From Acidobacteriaceae bacterium (GTDB taxonomy: Bacteria > Acidobacteriota > Terriglobia > Terriglobales > Acidobacteriaceae): 64,000 nucleotides of DNA. The stretch covers positions 62,001 through 126,000 of the forward strand of contig JAPWKG010000026.1 of assembly GCA_028283625.1 (NCBI GenBank), in the 5' to 3' direction. Positions 22,394-28,825 of this stretch are shown here, in pieces (position 1 is the first letter of the stretch; every line of letters begins with the position of its first letter). Under the pieces are notes generated by a model. That model saw nothing but the letters and a program-made list of their open reading frames with translations, had not been told where the DNA came from and made no database searches. Made by a program: the position numbers and the translations under genes.

Positions 22394-23344
22394 TTAGCGC
22401 CCCAGCTCCTCGAGGAACTTTTCGACTTCAAGAGCTGCCATGCAGCCGGTTCCGGCAGCGGTAATTGCCTGACGGTAGCGGCGATCCTGTACGTCGCCGC
22501 AGGCATATACGCCGTGGATCTGCACGCCGTTGCGTGTGACGAAGACGTTGTGTTCGGTCTTGATGTAGCCATCCTCGTCGAGGTCGATCTGGCCCTGGAA
22601 CATGGTGGCGTTCGGCTCGTGGCCGATGCCGAGGAACATGAACTGCACGGGCAGGGTCCAGCGCTCGCCGGTCTTGGTGTTGTGCACCTTCAGTCCCTTC
22701 ACGTCTTTTTCTTCAACGCCCAGCACCTCTTCGACCACGGTGTTGTGCAGGAACTCGATCTGCGGGTGCGCAATGGCGCGCTCCAGCATGATGCGGCTGG
22801 CGCGGAAGTTTTCCGAGCGGTTGATGAGGGTGACCTTCTTGGCAAAGCGGGTGAGGAAGAGTGCCTCTTCCATGGCCGAGTCGCCCCCGCCGACGACGGC
22901 GATCTCTTTGCCGGAGGCGAAGAAACCGTCGCAGGTGGCGCAGGAGCTGACACCGAAGCCGACAAGCGCCTTCTCGCTGGGCAGACCGAGCCAGCGGGCA
23001 GAAGCGCCGGAGGCGATGATGAGCGTACGCGTTTTGATGATCTCTTTGCCGACCTGCAGCTCAAAGGGCGAGGTGAGCAGGTTGGCGCTTGTCAGATGCG
23101 CCATGCGCAGCTCGGCGCCGAAGCGTGTGGCCTGCTTCTTCATGTTTTCAATCAGCTCAGGACCTTGTACGCCCTCCGGCCAGCCGGGAAAGTTTTCCAC
23201 CAGCGTGGTGATGGAAAGCTGTCCGCCGGGCTCATGGCCTTCCAGAACAAGAGGCTTAAGGTTGGAGCGGCCAGCATAAATGGCGGCGGTGAGTCCGGAG
23301 CATCCGGAGCCGAGAATAACGGTATCGCGTACGGTTTCAGACAT
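22394..23344 (-). CDS. trxB: Thioredoxin-disulfide reductase
   Basis: The 316-aa flavoprotein has the FAD-binding GSGCSGLTAA (residues about 12-21), the NADPH-binding VVGGGDSAMEEA, the redox centre SCATCDGFF (CATC, near residues 133-136) and the C-terminal YACGDVQDRRYRQAITAAGTGCMAA. It transfers electrons from NADPH to thioredoxin in the cytosol. The nucleotide loop has GSGCSG where most family members have GSGPAG; all three glycines are kept. The gene is monocistronic, with a strong terminator downstream, and is divergent from a small unknown gene 88 bp away. Confidence 0.95.
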   Translation of the reverse strand: MSETVRDTVILGSGCSGLTAAIYAGRSNLKPLVLEGHEPGGQLSITTLVENFPGWPEGVQGPELIENMKKQATRFGAELRMAHLTSANLLTSPFELQVGKEIIKTRTLIIASGASARWLGLPSEKALVGFGVSSCATCDGFFASGKEIAVVGGGDSAMEEALFLTRFAKKVTLINRSENFRASRIMLERAIAHPQIEFLHNTVVEEVLGVEEKDVKGLKVHNTKTGERWTLPVQFMFLGIGHEPNATMFQGQIDLDEDGYIKTEHNVFVTRNGVQIHGVYACGDVQDRRYRQAITAAGTGCMAALEVEKFLEELGR

Positions 23345-23762: not shown

Positions 23763-24413
23763 ATGCGCGTTTCGCGGCGGGTAGTCTGGCTTTTGGTCTT
23801 GGGGTGGGCGAGCGTACTGCCTGCGCAGTCGGTGTCGCCGCCGGACGCTTCGGTTGGGGCGGCGTTGCGCTCGCTTGCGCTGCGCGCGGGCACGGTGTTC
23901 GTCGGCCAGGTGCAACGCATCGAACGGCGCAACAGTGTTGTGCTCATTCATTTTTCGGTGGAGCAGACGCTGCAGGGCAGCGCCGGCAACGAGTACATTT
24001 TGCGGGAGTGGGCGGGGTTGTGGCCGCCGGGGCAGCAACGCTATTACGCAGGGGAACGTGCCCTGCTGTTTTTGCGTCCTGCATCTGCGGGGGCGTTGAG
24101 CACGCCGGTGGACGGTGCGGAAGGTGTGCTGCCGGTGCAGCAGCCGGAGGTAGCGGGCGGCGCGGCCACCGTAGACATCCGCAGGATTGCCACGAGGGTG
24201 CTGCGTGGGCCGCAGGAGCCGTTGGCCAGTGTGGCGAACGGCGCGATTTCCATGACCGAGGCAACAGCGCTGATCGCATCTGCGGGGCGCAGTCTGTGGC
24301 ATGAGCCGGTTCGCGTAAGGCTTCCGGTACCGGTCCGCATCGTGCTTTCCGGTGGTGGGGCAGGGGGCGGAGTTTCGGGACAGTCGCCTGTGAGGTTGCG
24401 GGATGCGCGTTAG
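23763..24413 (+). CDS. Secreted protein with possible TIMP/NTR-like domain
   Basis: From the ATG at 23763 the protein has 216 aa and a signal peptide (RRVVWLLVLGWASVLPAQS). The ORF track extends it to 23658, but MRVSRRVVWLL is the natural export start. The mature part reads LRAGTVFVGQVQRIE, then VVLIHFSVEQTLQG and YAGERALLFL. This order (surface-exposed VFVG strand, a FxVE..L.G strand, then a GE..LLF strand) resembles bacterial TIMP/netrin-like OB-fold domains. The cysteines usual in that family are absent. The stop overlaps the start of the next gene by 11 bp, so the two are coupled. The family assignment is tentative. Confidence 0.6.
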   Translation: MRVSRRVVWLLVLGWASVLPAQSVSPPDASVGAALRSLALRAGTVFVGQVQRIERRNSVVLIHFSVEQTLQGSAGNEYILREWAGLWPPGQQRYYAGERALLFLRPASAGALSTPVDGAEGVLPVQQPEVAGGAATVDIRRIATRVLRGPQEPLASVANGAISMTEATALIASAGRSLWHEPVRVRLPVPVRIVLSGGGAGGGVSGQSPVRLRDAR

Positions 24414-27345
24414 CCTCTGGAGCTCTGGTGGGAGCAGACGCCGTACGGCGCACGTCTGGGTATTGCTTCCCGTGCTGCTGTTGATGGCCGGGCGTTGTGC
24501 GTATGCCGGCGGTCCCCGCTTCGTTACGGGAACAACCTACGCGAATCAGGGGCAGTGGATGGCGTTTCGGACGCCAAACGTCAGCTACTATACCGACCCC
24601 GGAGACTTGAACGCTTCGGTGGCTCATGCGCAGGCGGATGCGATTGTGGCCGCGGCCGCGGCGGTGTGGAACGTGCCTTCGGCGAGCCTGGTGCTGGCGC
24701 AGGGCGGAGCTTTGAGCGAGCACGTCAGCTCGAAGAACACCTACTTCGATGGTGAGAACGTGATCTTTCCTGCCGATGTGCAGGCGACGAACTTTCTGGC
24801 CAAGCCGGTTGCGGTGATCTACGACTCGGATGGCTCGGTGATTGATCTTTTACTCGGGGTGAGCGCGAGCGATCCTTCGAGCTGCCGCCAGAATTCGGTG
24901 GTGGAGAGCGTGGATGGGTTTGGCGCGACGGGAACCATTGACCATGCGTTGTTGATCCTGAACGGCCGCTGCGTGACGAATACGGCGGACTCCCTCAAGC
25001 AGATGCAGTATTACCTGATGCGGGGCTTTGGCCGGGTGCTGGGCTTGGCGTGGTCGCAGACCAATGACAATGTCTTTACCGCGTCGCCTTTGCCGAGCGC
25101 ATCGCAGATGGCGTACTGGCCGGTAATGCATCCGATCGACGTGCTCTGCGGGCCCTACACCTATCTGTGTATGCAGAACCCCTTTGTGCTGCGTCCGGAT
25201 GACCTGAGCGCCTTGGCGATGCTGTATCCGGTGACCGCCAGTAACCTGAGCGCGGGCAAGGTGCTGAGTGATACCGGCAGTGCCCAGATCTGGGGCTACC
25301 TGCGCTTTCCCGATCCGTTCGTCGTCGGTGTGGATGAGGTCAACGTGACCATCAACATCTCCCAGCTGTTTCACGCGCAGCACGACTACCAGATCGCATC
25401 CGGACTGAGCGGCATTCTATTCCAGCAGAACAACGGCAACCCGATGACGGGGCCGGAGCCGGACGAGGAGAACGTGGGCTCGGTGCAGGACAGGAACTCG
25501 GCCGGGTACTACGACGTGCATCGCATCCCTCATCCGGATTCGGATACGTGGGTGATGGAGGTCTTCGAGTCGATTAACCCGTTGTACAGCGGGGAGTACG
25601 CTCTGGGATCCTTTGAACGGCCGCCTGTGAGCTTCGATATCGATGCCGCGACGATTTACGCGGTACTGCCGTCGAGCGGTTCGCAGTCGATGGAGATCTA
25701 CCAGTTCTTTGACAATGCGGCGAACACCTGCCGCACCGCGACCAACGGCGCCATCGACGCACCTCCGGTGGTGGCGAGCAGCGGCTGGTGGACGGACGTG
25801 TTGTGCGACTCGAACTGGCCTGCCTGGAAGCAGGCGAGCCTGAAGGCGGGGCACAGCTGGACGCTGGAGTCCACGGCGCTGGATAGCGCAGGCAACATCT
25901 CGGCGGCGAAGGCTCAGCCGGTCTTTGGCGTGTGGTACACGAGCGATCGCTATGACGCGTTGCCTACGGTGGCCGCGAATACGGTGCCGATGAACGGCGC
26001 GACGAACGGGCTGACGCAGTTACATGTTGCCGCGGCGAGTGCGGATGCGACGTATCGCATTGGGCTGGCGGACTACTACAGCGAAGGCCGTCCGGACTTC
26101 TTTTATCGTGCCCGGTTGCTGTACGCCGACGCGCTGGCTCCTGCCAGCGTGGGCGCTGCGGGGGGAACGGTCACGGTGACCGGGATGGGCTTTGCCAATG
26201 GCAATCGGGTGACGGTGAACGGCGTAACGGCCAAGGTGGTGAGCTGGTCGCCCAGCAGCATTACGGCGGTTGCGCCTTCAAGCACGGCGGCGGGAGCGAA
26301 GGCGGGTGTTCCGGTAACGGTTGCGGTAACGGATCTGACGACGGGAGGAAGCACAGCCATCACGGGAGCGCTGCGCTATGGTGCGGCGGGGGCGTATGGT
26401 GTGCTGTTGCTGAGTGCGCCCTCGGCCCTGAGTACGGGCAGCGTTGCTGCGACGCCGTTTCAGGTCAAGGTTGTTGCGGCCGATGGGGTGACGGCGATTG
26501 CGGGAGCGAAGGTGAGCTTTGCGGTCGCGGTGGGTTCGGCGATGTTGAACGCGTGCGGTTCACCGCAGAGCTGCACGCTGGTGACGGACGCCAGCGGTAC
26601 GGCTTCGACGACCGTAACGGGGACGTCTGCGGGAGCTGTGGTGCTGACGGCGACGGAGAGCAGCGGCGGGGCAAGTGTATCGGTGCAGCTGACCGATACC
26701 GACCCGGTGCGGTCGGTGCTGATGCGCAGCGCGCCGTTGTATGTTGCAGCCGGCGCGAGCTGGAGCACGCCGATTCAGCTGTATGCCCTTCAGGATGGCG
26801 CGGCGGCCTCGGCGGCGCCGGTGATCTGGAGCGCGAGTGCGGGTCTGTTGCTGAGCTCGGTGTCAACGCTGACCGACGCTGGCGGTGCTGCCTCCGCCAC
26901 GGTGCTGGACAACGCGCTTGCGGCGGGGCAGGCGAGCGTGCAGGGGTGCGTCTGGACGACGGTGTGCGCAAGCTGGACGCTGGTGAGCGTGGACCCCTCG
27001 CTGTGGCAGGTGGCGGTCGTCAGCGGTGCGGGCCAGAGCGTCGAGATTCCGGCAGCGTTGGCGCCGGTGACGCTGCAGCTCACCGATGGTTCGGGCCACC
27101 CGCTGGCGGGGGCTCCGGTTAGCGTAGCCCAGACGGTGACCGCATGGGAGGGGGAGTGCCCGGATCGCGGCCGCTGCCCGGCAGCGCCCGTGCTGGCGAG
27201 CGCACAGAGCATGGCGGCAAGCGATGCCAATGGTCTGGTGAGTGTGGCACCGCTCAGTGTCGCGGCAAGTGCGGGCATGACGAACATCGCCGTGTCGACC
27301 GGCAACAACGGCTTTGTCTCGCTTACTCTGGCGCGAGCTCCTTAG
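24403..27345 (+). CDS. Large secreted protein: degenerate matrixin-like domain plus IPT/TIG and Ig-like repeats
   Basis: The 980-aa protein has a signal peptide (VLLPVLLLMAGRCAYAG). Residues about 35-290 look like a matrixin-type metalloprotease: an N-terminal FRTPNVSYYTDPGD strand, a helix with LMRGFGRVLGLAWS near residue 205, a YWPVMHPI Met-turn and LRPDDLSALAMLYP. In active enzymes the helix reads HExGHxLGLxH; here the His, Glu, His and third His are replaced by Arg, Gly, Arg and Trp, so zinc catalysis is not expected. Residues about 580-660 form an IPT/TIG domain (GGTVTVTGMGFANGNRVTVNG). Two or three bacterial Ig-like modules complete the chain. The start lies within the preceding gene's last codons. 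Confidence 0.72.
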   Translation: MRVSLWSSGGSRRRTAHVWVLLPVLLLMAGRCAYAGGPRFVTGTTYANQGQWMAFRTPNVSYYTDPGDLNASVAHAQADAIVAAAAAVWNVPSASLVLAQGGALSEHVSSKNTYFDGENVIFPADVQATNFLAKPVAVIYDSDGSVIDLLLGVSASDPSSCRQNSVVESVDGFGATGTIDHALLILNGRCVTNTADSLKQMQYYLMRGFGRVLGLAWSQTNDNVFTASPLPSASQMAYWPVMHPIDVLCGPYTYLCMQNPFVLRPDDLSALAMLYPVTASNLSAGKVLSDTGSAQIWGYLRFPDPFVVGVDEVNVTINISQLFHAQHDYQIASGLSGILFQQNNGNPMTGPEPDEENVGSVQDRNSAGYYDVHRIPHPDSDTWVMEVFESINPLYSGEYALGSFERPPVSFDIDAATIYAVLPSSGSQSMEIYQFFDNAANTCRTATNGAIDAPPVVASSGWWTDVLCDSNWPAWKQASLKAGHSWTLESTALDSAGNISAAKAQPVFGVWYTSDRYDALPTVAANTVPMNGATNGLTQLHVAAASADATYRIGLADYYSEGRPDFFYRARLLYADALAPASVGAAGGTVTVTGMGFANGNRVTVNGVTAKVVSWSPSSITAVAPSSTAAGAKAGVPVTVAVTDLTTGGSTAITGALRYGAAGAYGVLLLSAPSALSTGSVAATPFQVKVVAADGVTAIAGAKVSFAVAVGSAMLNACGSPQSCTLVTDASGTASTTVTGTSAGAVVLTATESSGGASVSVQLTDTDPVRSVLMRSAPLYVAAGASWSTPIQLYALQDGAAASAAPVIWSASAGLLLSSVSTLTDAGGAASATVLDNALAAGQASVQGCVWTTVCASWTLVSVDPSLWQVAVVSGAGQSVEIPAALAPVTLQLTDGSGHPLAGAPVSVAQTVTAWEGECPDRGRCPAAPVLASAQSMAASDANGLVSVAPLSVAASAGMTNIAVSTGNNGFVSLTLARAP

Positions 27346-27469: not shown

Positions 27470-28825
27470 TTACGCGCCGGAGGCTACGGAGCGCTTGATG
27501 GCCACGAACCCGAAGATGGCGATGTAGATGTAGCAGAAGGCCGGGATGATGAAGGCCGGGTGCAGCCCGATATGGTCAGCCAGAGTTCCGGTCAGATACG
27601 GAATGACGGCTCCGCCAAGAACCGCTGCGATCATCAGGCTGGAGCCTTTGCTCGTGAGCGAACCAAGGTCCTGAATACCGAGCGTAAAGATGGACGGGAA
27701 CATGATGGAGTTGAAGAAGCCGACGGCCAGCAACGCCCACATGGCGGTATGTCCATGGGTGAGCAGCGAGAGCGCAACCAGCAGGAGAGCGCCGATACCG
27801 GCAATGCCGAGCGCCGTTCCGGTTTTGACCTTCTGCAGGATCGCCGAGCCGATGAAGCGGCCAATCATGGCGCCGCCCCAGTAGAGCATCAGCAGCTTGG
27901 CGGCATGGGTTTCCGGCACCCCGCCGATCTCGGGCAGTCCCATAAAGTTCACCAACAGGGAGCCGATGCTGACCTCTGCGCCGACATAGACGAAGATGCC
28001 CAGGGCGCCGAAGAGGAGCCAGGGATGCCGCCAGATGGAGTCCGCGCTGTAGAGCGCCTCCGCAAACGCGCCGGGACGGAAGTCCTGCGTGTTTTGCGAG
28101 ATGCCGTGCTTGGTCTTGAGCTTGATGGTGGCCAGAGCGATGGCCAGCAGAACCAGCGTGAGCCCGATGCCGATGTAGGGCATGCGCACCGTTGAGGCCT
28201 GCGCTGCGCGGTAGCTCTGCCGCGCGATCTCGGTCATGGAGCTAAGCTTCTCCGGCGTAGCCGGGGCCGGTGCGGTTGCGAGGATGAGCACGGAGCCAAA
28301 GAAAGGGGCAATAAACGTGCCGACCGAGTTGAACGCCTGCGCCAGGTTGAGCCGTGAGGATGCGGTCGCGGGAGGACCGATGACCGTCACGTAAGGGTTC
28401 ACCGCCACCTGCACGATCGTCATACCGGCGGCGAGCACCACCAGCGCGAGCAGGAAGATGGGGAAGAGAGCGCTTCCGGCAGCGGGCAGAAAACCGAAGG
28501 CTCCGCAGGCCATGACGAGAAGCCCGGCCACCATTGTCTTTTTGTAGCCGAACTTGTCGACGAGCTTCCCGGCGGGGTAGCTGAAGACAAAGTAGGAGGT
28601 GAAGAAGGCGAGCTGCACGAAGAGCGCCTGCGCGTAATTCAGCTCAAAGATGGATTTGAGGTGCGGGATCAGGACATCGTTCAGGCAGGTGAGAAAGCCC
28701 ACCATGAAGAACAGCGCCGTGGCGACGCTCATCGCGCGGGTGTCGGTTTGCAGGTACGCGTCTTCGCCGTAGCCAGGCGCGCTGGGGTTGCGGAGGGAAA
28801 CGGCCAAGGTCTGGTGCTCCTTCAA
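27470..28825 (-). CDS. FucP/GluP-type sugar MFS transporter
   Basis: This 451-aa major facilitator protein has twelve predicted helices. The first reads ALFFMVGFLTCLNDVLIPHLKSIFELNYAQA, which is characteristic of the fucose/glucose/galactose:proton symporter family (FucP, GluP). The intracellular loop GKLVDKFGYKKTM is the MFS signature. It imports a monosaccharide across the inner membrane. It lies downstream of a GH31 glycosidase gene on the same strand, 144 bp apart, so it probably takes up the sugar released by that enzyme. Confidence 0.88.
   Translation of the reverse strand: MKEHQTLAVSLRNPSAPGYGEDAYLQTDTRAMSVATALFFMVGFLTCLNDVLIPHLKSIFELNYAQALFVQLAFFTSYFVFSYPAGKLVDKFGYKKTMVAGLLVMACGAFGFLPAAGSALFPIFLLALVVLAAGMTIVQVAVNPYVTVIGPPATASSRLNLAQAFNSVGTFIAPFFGSVLILATAPAPATPEKLSSMTEIARQSYRAAQASTVRMPYIGIGLTLVLLAIALATIKLKTKHGISQNTQDFRPGAFAEALYSADSIWRHPWLLFGALGIFVYVGAEVSIGSLLVNFMGLPEIGGVPETHAAKLLMLYWGGAMIGRFIGSAILQKVKTGTALGIAGIGALLLVALSLLTHGHTAMWALLAVGFFNSIMFPSIFTLGIQDLGSLTSKGSSLMIAAVLGGAVIPYLTGTLADHIGLHPAFIIPAFCYIYIAIFGFVAIKRSVASGA

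Follow-up and report, generated by a model that had tools for sequence, protein, structure and literature searches.

The window analyzed here is a 64,000-nucleotide stretch of DNA from a soil bacterium of the Acidobacteriaceae (GenBank assembly GCA_028283625.1, contig JAPWKG010000026.1, positions 62,001 to 126,000 of the forward strand). It contains two overlapping genes on the same strand (Table 1). The downstream gene encodes a protein with a matrixin-like domain in which the zinc ligands are missing, here designated a pseudo-matrixin, and the upstream gene encodes its putative partner, an NTR-like protein predicted to resemble the tissue inhibitors of metalloproteinases (TIMPs). The predicted fold, the complete loss of the ligands, the single origin and conservation of the dead form, the purifying selection, and the linkage of the two genes were established computationally.

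Table 1. Coordinates of the partner and pseudo-matrixin genes and of their features in the window
Feature	Coordinates	Strand	Basis
Partner gene, 216 amino acids (aa), secreted, predicted NTR/TIMP-like OB-fold; 11-bp overlap with the start of the pseudo-matrixin gene	23763..24413	+	AlphaFold2 (AF2), Foldseek
NTR-like core domain	23838..24287 (G000:C4:85838-86287)	+	Partner profile match
Pseudo-matrixin gene, 980 aa, one open frame	24403..27345	+	Open reading frame (ORF) translation
Putative Sec-type signal peptide, residues 1-35, MRVSLWSS...LLPVLLLMAGRCAYA, followed by GG	24403..24507	+	Inspection of the sequence
Predicted catalytically dead matrixin-fold domain, ~residues 36-280 (~245 residues)	24508..25242	+	Alignment, AF2, Foldseek
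Former zinc-binding helix and loop, R207-G208-F-G-R211-V-L-G-L-A-W217 replacing HExxHxxGxxH	25021..25053	+	Alignment
Retained Met-turn VMHPI, Met = M242	25123..25137	+	Alignment
Final helix DDLSALAMLYP, residues 266-276	25198..25230	+	Alignment, AF2
Post-matrixin region, ~residues 299-450, common to most shorter active relatives	25297..25752	+	Profile coverage to ~position 410-475 in those active relatives
C-terminal extension, missing from most class-level active sisters	25753..27342	+	Length and profile comparison
IPT/TIG domain, residues 584-647	26152..26343	+	Pfam PF01833, E 5e-8, above cut-off
Big_1 Ig-like domain, residues 682-763	26446..26691	+	Pfam PF02369, E 1.7e-5, below curated cut-off in the window protein

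Loss of the zinc-binding site

An earlier reading of this DNA made from its letters alone (the sequence-only reading) had described a matrixin frame in which all zinc ligands and the catalytic Glu were replaced. The LMRGFGRVLGLAWS helix, the VMHPI Met-turn, and the DDLSALAMLYP final helix that it quoted are all present in the translated pseudo-matrixin ORF, and alignment identified R207 (codon 25021-25023), G208, R211 (25033-25035), and W217 (25051-25053) as the substitutes for the His, Glu, His, and His residues, respectively, of the matrixin site.

When relatives and the class were searched, 144 profile-matching frames were obtained and sorted by motif. The dead form was identified in 98 genomes (one per genome; 32 genera), all in the window's own family, and has no His at any ligand position. 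Arg replaces the first His in 98/98 and is followed three residues on by Gly, also in 98/98; the second His is Arg in 86/98, the third is Trp, Tyr, or Phe in 95/98, and the catalytic Glu position is never Glu. The Met of the Met-turn is kept in 98% of the dead clade. HExxHxxGxxH was intact in 34 frames, 8 of them in the window's own family and the remainder elsewhere in the class. In another collection of contigs, which gave no match to the single sequence, a profile scan found named relatives from the Acidobacteriaceae genera Granulicella, Edaphobacter, Bryocella, Terriglobus, Acidobacterium, Acidipila, and Silvibacterium. The zinc-site loss seen in the window protein is kept across almost the whole bacterial family, and the alignment of orthologues, none of the 98 retaining HExxH, bears out the sequence-only reading.

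Some loci depart from this pattern. One member of the dead clade (L141, genome G391) reads RAFGLVLGLGH, with a His at the third ligand position only, which could be a leftover or a reversion. In a metagenome-assembled genome (MAG; L042, G005:C37), an in-frame TAG interrupts the pseudo-matrixin gene, and the NTR gene is broken into two frames, reflecting either true decay or assembly errors. Acidobacterial pseudo-matrixins were also found in MAGs recorded under the names Rhodanobacteraceae and Nevskia soli (L201, L204, and L218), which are probably mislabelled bins.

Predicted fold and homology with matrixins

The AF2 model of the pseudo-matrixin domain, calculated from a 41-row alignment, had a mean predicted local distance difference test score (pLDDT) of 89.1 and a predicted template-modeling score (pTM) of 0.88. 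The best 50 listed Foldseek matches to this model in the PDB were all matrix metalloproteinases (MMPs), with E values of 1.1e-5 to 1.6e-4. Template-modeling scores (TM-scores) by target were mostly 0.60 to 0.68, and the match to the MMPs is therefore clear yet distant. The predicted structure has the metzincin catalytic-domain fold with the MMPs as its nearest relatives, as the sequence-only reading had proposed from motif spacing. Because 34 intact HExxHxxGxxH relatives align with the window protein, most of them across approximately residues 20 to 450, the likeness to matrixins reflects homology rather than chance.

In a Pfam search, the window protein itself gave no match to PF00413 (M10), and PF00413 matched all four intact sisters in A1, with E values down to 6e-7. 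Sequence searches of the PDB with profiles gave only weak matches, among them MMPs and alkaline protease, and the partner profile gave no match there. No NCBIfam family was assigned to the pseudo-matrixin domain or to the upstream partner. On the basis of the model, the window domain almost certainly has a dead matrixin fold. Since HExxHxxGxxH was tested for and is absent, the name "matrixin peptidase" is unsuitable; fold and descent make the protein a pseudo-matrixin.

Evolution of the dead form

In a tree of 94 domain sequences, from which the four motif columns had been excluded, the dead sequences and the mixed sequence of G391 formed one clade (support, 99/100; stem, 0.84), and the tree required one active/dead change. 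Pairwise ratios of nonsynonymous to synonymous substitution rates (dN/dS) in the dead domain had a median of 0.087 (range, 0.05 to 0.19) among 44 within-genus pairs with identities of >80%, which share branches and are thus not independent. A dN/dS of ~0.09 excludes neutral decay. The dead form has a single origin and is under purifying selection, and a selected noncatalytic role of the pseudo-matrixin is highly probable.

Residues E106, P123, D125, C161, D171, H181, C190, Y203, R207, and C256 are near-invariant in the dead clade and not in its active sisters. The dead proteins are also longer (median, 988.5 aa) than the class-level active ones (495 aa), and their conserved residues are concentrated in the matrixin domain and also in the C-terminal half, the extension of which has conserved Cys pairs at 718/724 and 849/855. 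Pfam finds TIG and Big_1 each in 25/28 members of the pseudo-matrixin family, and the fusion to TIG and Ig-like modules noted in the sequence-only reading was recovered in the window protein, although Big_1 falls below the curated cut-off there.

The upstream gene for a putative partner with a predicted NTR/TIMP fold

The NTR/TIMP-fold gene directly upstream, absent from the sequence-only reading, is the main clue to function. An AF2 model of the partner, calculated from a 35-row alignment, had a pLDDT of 86.6 and a pTM of 0.79, and its predicted structure has the NTR/OB-fold that characterizes the TIMP family, with modest TM-scores. The Foldseek matches in the PDB included the NTR domains of agrin (NtA), complement C3/C4/C5, PCOLCE, TIMP-1, TIMP-2, and meteorin; agrin NtA is described in its PDB entry as related to N-TIMP-1. 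The top 50 were almost entirely NTR domains, with one unrelated entry.

An NTR gene lies directly upstream on the same strand in 70/98 dead genes and in 31/32 assessable active genes, two active loci being cut by contig ends. A genome-wide NTR search of 46 dead-form genomes gave 34 matches in 31 genomes, all adjoining a matrixin-like gene, either dead or active, and two divergent M10 genes beside NTR genes (G050 and G053) were found independently with PF00413. Among the 46 genomes searched, those with an NTR-less dead gene had no NTR gene elsewhere, the exceptions being G042 and G053, whose NTR copies adjoin active matrixins. Mapped on the tree, the NTR trait shows three changes; one large subclade has lost the NTR gene and kept the dead protein.

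Two tandem pairs of NTR and active matrixin genes were seen at one locus (L073, G052). The flanks of the NTR/pseudo-matrixin pair in the window, a thioredoxin-reductase-like gene (22394-23344, reverse strand) and an MFS transporter gene (27470-28825, reverse strand), are kept in almost all congeners.

Matrixin and NTR genes in the phylum

A phylum-wide sample added 40 loci with 41 NTR frames. A matrixin follows 32 of these frames and is fused to 2, and a further three (L304, L306, and L321) overlap a long HExxH-bearing matrixin frame. In another protein set, a single chain combines an NTR domain at its N terminus with a matrixin domain. Such single-chain fusions of NTR and an intact matrixin occur in other families of the phylum, often several per genome (L331, L332, L338-L349, and L351-L354). 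HExxH is kept in the phylum-wide relatives; in some of them, the metzincin Gly of HExxHxxG is an Asn. Such HExxHxxNxxH matrixins were seen at L303, L309, L310, L315, and L329. Phylum relatives without a detected zinc motif were considered as further dead matrixins and rejected, as most of them keep HExxHxxNxxH on alignment. Taken together, this distribution points to a widespread association of matrixins with TIMP-fold companions in a bacterial phylum.

The fusions of family f90 differ: G690 (L326:3901-5913) has RNLGLAFGLNF, and G718 and G719 (L337 and L336) have HDLGIAFGLDN. In hhalign, A1 matched the G690 protein with an E value of 8e-5 and a probability of only 62. To judge from these three sequences, f90 looks like a second, apparently independent site loss, with the NTR domain again present.

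Interpretation

We propose that an ancestral acidobacterial two-gene module, in which a gene for a secreted NTR/TIMP-fold protein preceded one for a secreted matrixin protease, became a noncatalytic pair through a single conversion in this family's lineage. The matrixin would have lost all zinc ligands and the Glu and gained a TIG/Ig-like C-terminal half of ~500 aa, with new invariant residues and candidate disulfides arising at the former active site and near it, and with purifying selection retaining the protein. Established knowledge of metzincins and the lost ligands lead us to expect neither catalytic zinc binding nor peptide hydrolysis, and the pseudo-matrixin is probably extracellular and noncatalytic. 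The domain may have been kept as a binding module, for which the NTR protein would be the ancestral ligand or regulator: a protein ligand, which in the ancestral state would be the product of the upstream NTR gene, could sit in the former substrate cleft, and the Ig/TIG half would position the complex.

A neofunctionalised extracellular binding or scaffold protein, ancestrally partnered with the NTR protein, is the reading that we favor, with some confidence. For direct binding of the NTR partner by the pseudo-matrixin, where the partner is present, we see about even chances. A broader proposal, in which one family converted a phylum-wide matrixin/NTR system to a purely noncatalytic recognition pair with the invariant Arg and the aromatic residue as an NTR-binding hotspot, is tentative.

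Several observations weigh against an NTR-partnered binding protein. The NTR match of the partner is modest (best E value, 5.6e-4; best TM-score by target, ~0.45), and the assignment therefore leans on the consistency of the match list and on the company of the gene. The partner evolves faster than the pseudo-matrixin (median dN/dS, 0.25), and the AF2 models are of single chains. As 28/98 dead genes have no NTR neighbor, the pseudo-matrixin has an independent function, and NTR binding is not its sole function. T64, L151, W217, N223, and V224 are relaxed in NTR-less lineages, and this set was put aside as an interface signal because it is confounded with phylogeny. W217 itself is conserved at 100% and 95% in two NTR-bearing groups and at 46% in the NTR-less group, a pattern that would fit an interface role in a comparison that is confounded by ancestry.

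Among the alternatives, the one that survives best, although we regard it as rather improbable, is a surface adhesin, a role also raised in the sequence-only reading. Its TIG/Ig half and dead domain would bind cells, matrix, or surfaces, with the NTR gene as a co-inherited chaperone or relic. The signal peptide, the retention of TIG and Big_1 in most family members, and the subclade that kept the dead protein without the NTR gene would all be in keeping with this. However, inspection revealed no anchor at the C terminus, the NTR gene is directly upstream in most dead-form loci, and residue conservation is concentrated not only in the C-terminal half but also in the matrixin domain.

Less probable still is a decoy role, an idea raised in the sequence-only reading. 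As a decoy, the dead protein would titrate the NTR inhibitor or compete for substrates and so modulate active matrixins of the same cell. The NTR partner is common to active matrixins, both forms occur in a few genomes (G001, G038, G042, and G068), and inactive ADAMs have been suggested to have decoy or accessory functions (PMC3650047). However, most dead-form genomes lack an active NTR-linked matrixin to mimic, which weakens the idea. In the window's own genome (~85% complete), PF00413 had no match even at an E value of 10, the full-length protein matched only once, and a single NTR gene was found. PF00413, which is insensitive and may miss active copies, matched above its cut-off in only 8/74 dead-form genomes, and in the class-wide profile search nearly every genome had a single copy. 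With a recognizable active copy in so few dead-form genomes, a decoy is unlikely as a general role.

It is slightly less likely again that the protein is still an enzyme, metal dependent or otherwise, with a rebuilt site made up of, e.g., D171, H181, E106, D125, and H243. Within the dead clade, H181 and D171 do not vary, E106 and D125 hardly vary, and H243 follows the Met-turn in 85%; the conservation of the first four residues is not shared by the active sisters. Nevertheless, the invariant Arg at the first His argues against a cation there, and we know of no metzincin that works without His ligands. A decaying relic or an annotation or sequencing artifact, which the loss of catalytic residues alone and the interrupted copy in the G005 MAG would fit, is refuted by the low dN/dS, the long frames intact in nearly all genomes, and the exact conservation across the 32 genera, complete isolate genomes included, and deserves hardly any credence. 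In preference to these alternatives, we retain the binding or scaffold protein with an ancestral NTR partner.

Comparison with known systems

The pseudo-matrixin has its predicted fold, Met-turn, helix spacing, and final helix in common with the MMPs and other matrixins (PF00413; MEROPS M10), and its sister proteins match PF00413. However, it lacks the zinc ligands and the catalytic Glu, is not detected by PF00413, and has a bacterial TIG/Ig C-terminal half. The partner likewise has its predicted fold in common with TIMPs and with the NTR proteins agrin NtA, C3/C4/C5, and PCOLCE. TIMPs inhibit MMPs through an N-terminal Cys (Cys1) that is placed in the active site and chelates the MMP zinc. 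In contrast, the mature partner translated from the window has no Cys at all, with both Cys1 and the TIMP disulfides absent, and gave no match in Pfam, being without Pfam-detectable sequence similarity to TIMPs. As the partner has no Cys, the geometry must differ from that of the TIMP-MMP complex.

Metzincin-type pseudoproteases are known mainly from animals (ADAMs), and we found no paper on bacterial matrixin pseudoproteases or acidobacterial matrixins in the open-access literature. The present case is a bacterial metzincin-type pseudoprotease fixed across most of a family, and its intact sisters with the same NTR-fold neighbor provide an exact evolutionary before-and-after; the case offers a way to study a zinc centre replaced by an Arg/aromatic core. 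In the inactive zincins (inactive ADAMs and the CLCA and BSP families), Arg is recurrent and nonrandom at the first and second His, with its role unknown (PMC3650047), and Arg occupies the same two positions in the pseudo-matrixin. Here, however, the substitution is fixed across a bacterial family, affects all ligands, and is accompanied by an NTR partner gene.

The nearest precedent that we found is the Mtz-Tim system of Listeria, in which the active secreted metzincin Mtz cleaves the TIMP-fold lipoprotein Tim (PMC8235301). Its authors had no record of other bacterial TIMP-like proteins (PMC8235301). The likeness lies in gene adjacency and fold, with secreted metzincin-fold and TIMP-fold proteins encoded by adjacent genes in both systems. 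The window protein has no active-site residues and is thus not an active metzincin that cleaves its partner. Whereas Tim is a lipoprotein, phage linked, and encoded downstream of mtz (PMC8235301), the acidobacterial pair is chromosomal, with a dead matrixin, an NTR gene upstream of it, and no lipobox Cys.

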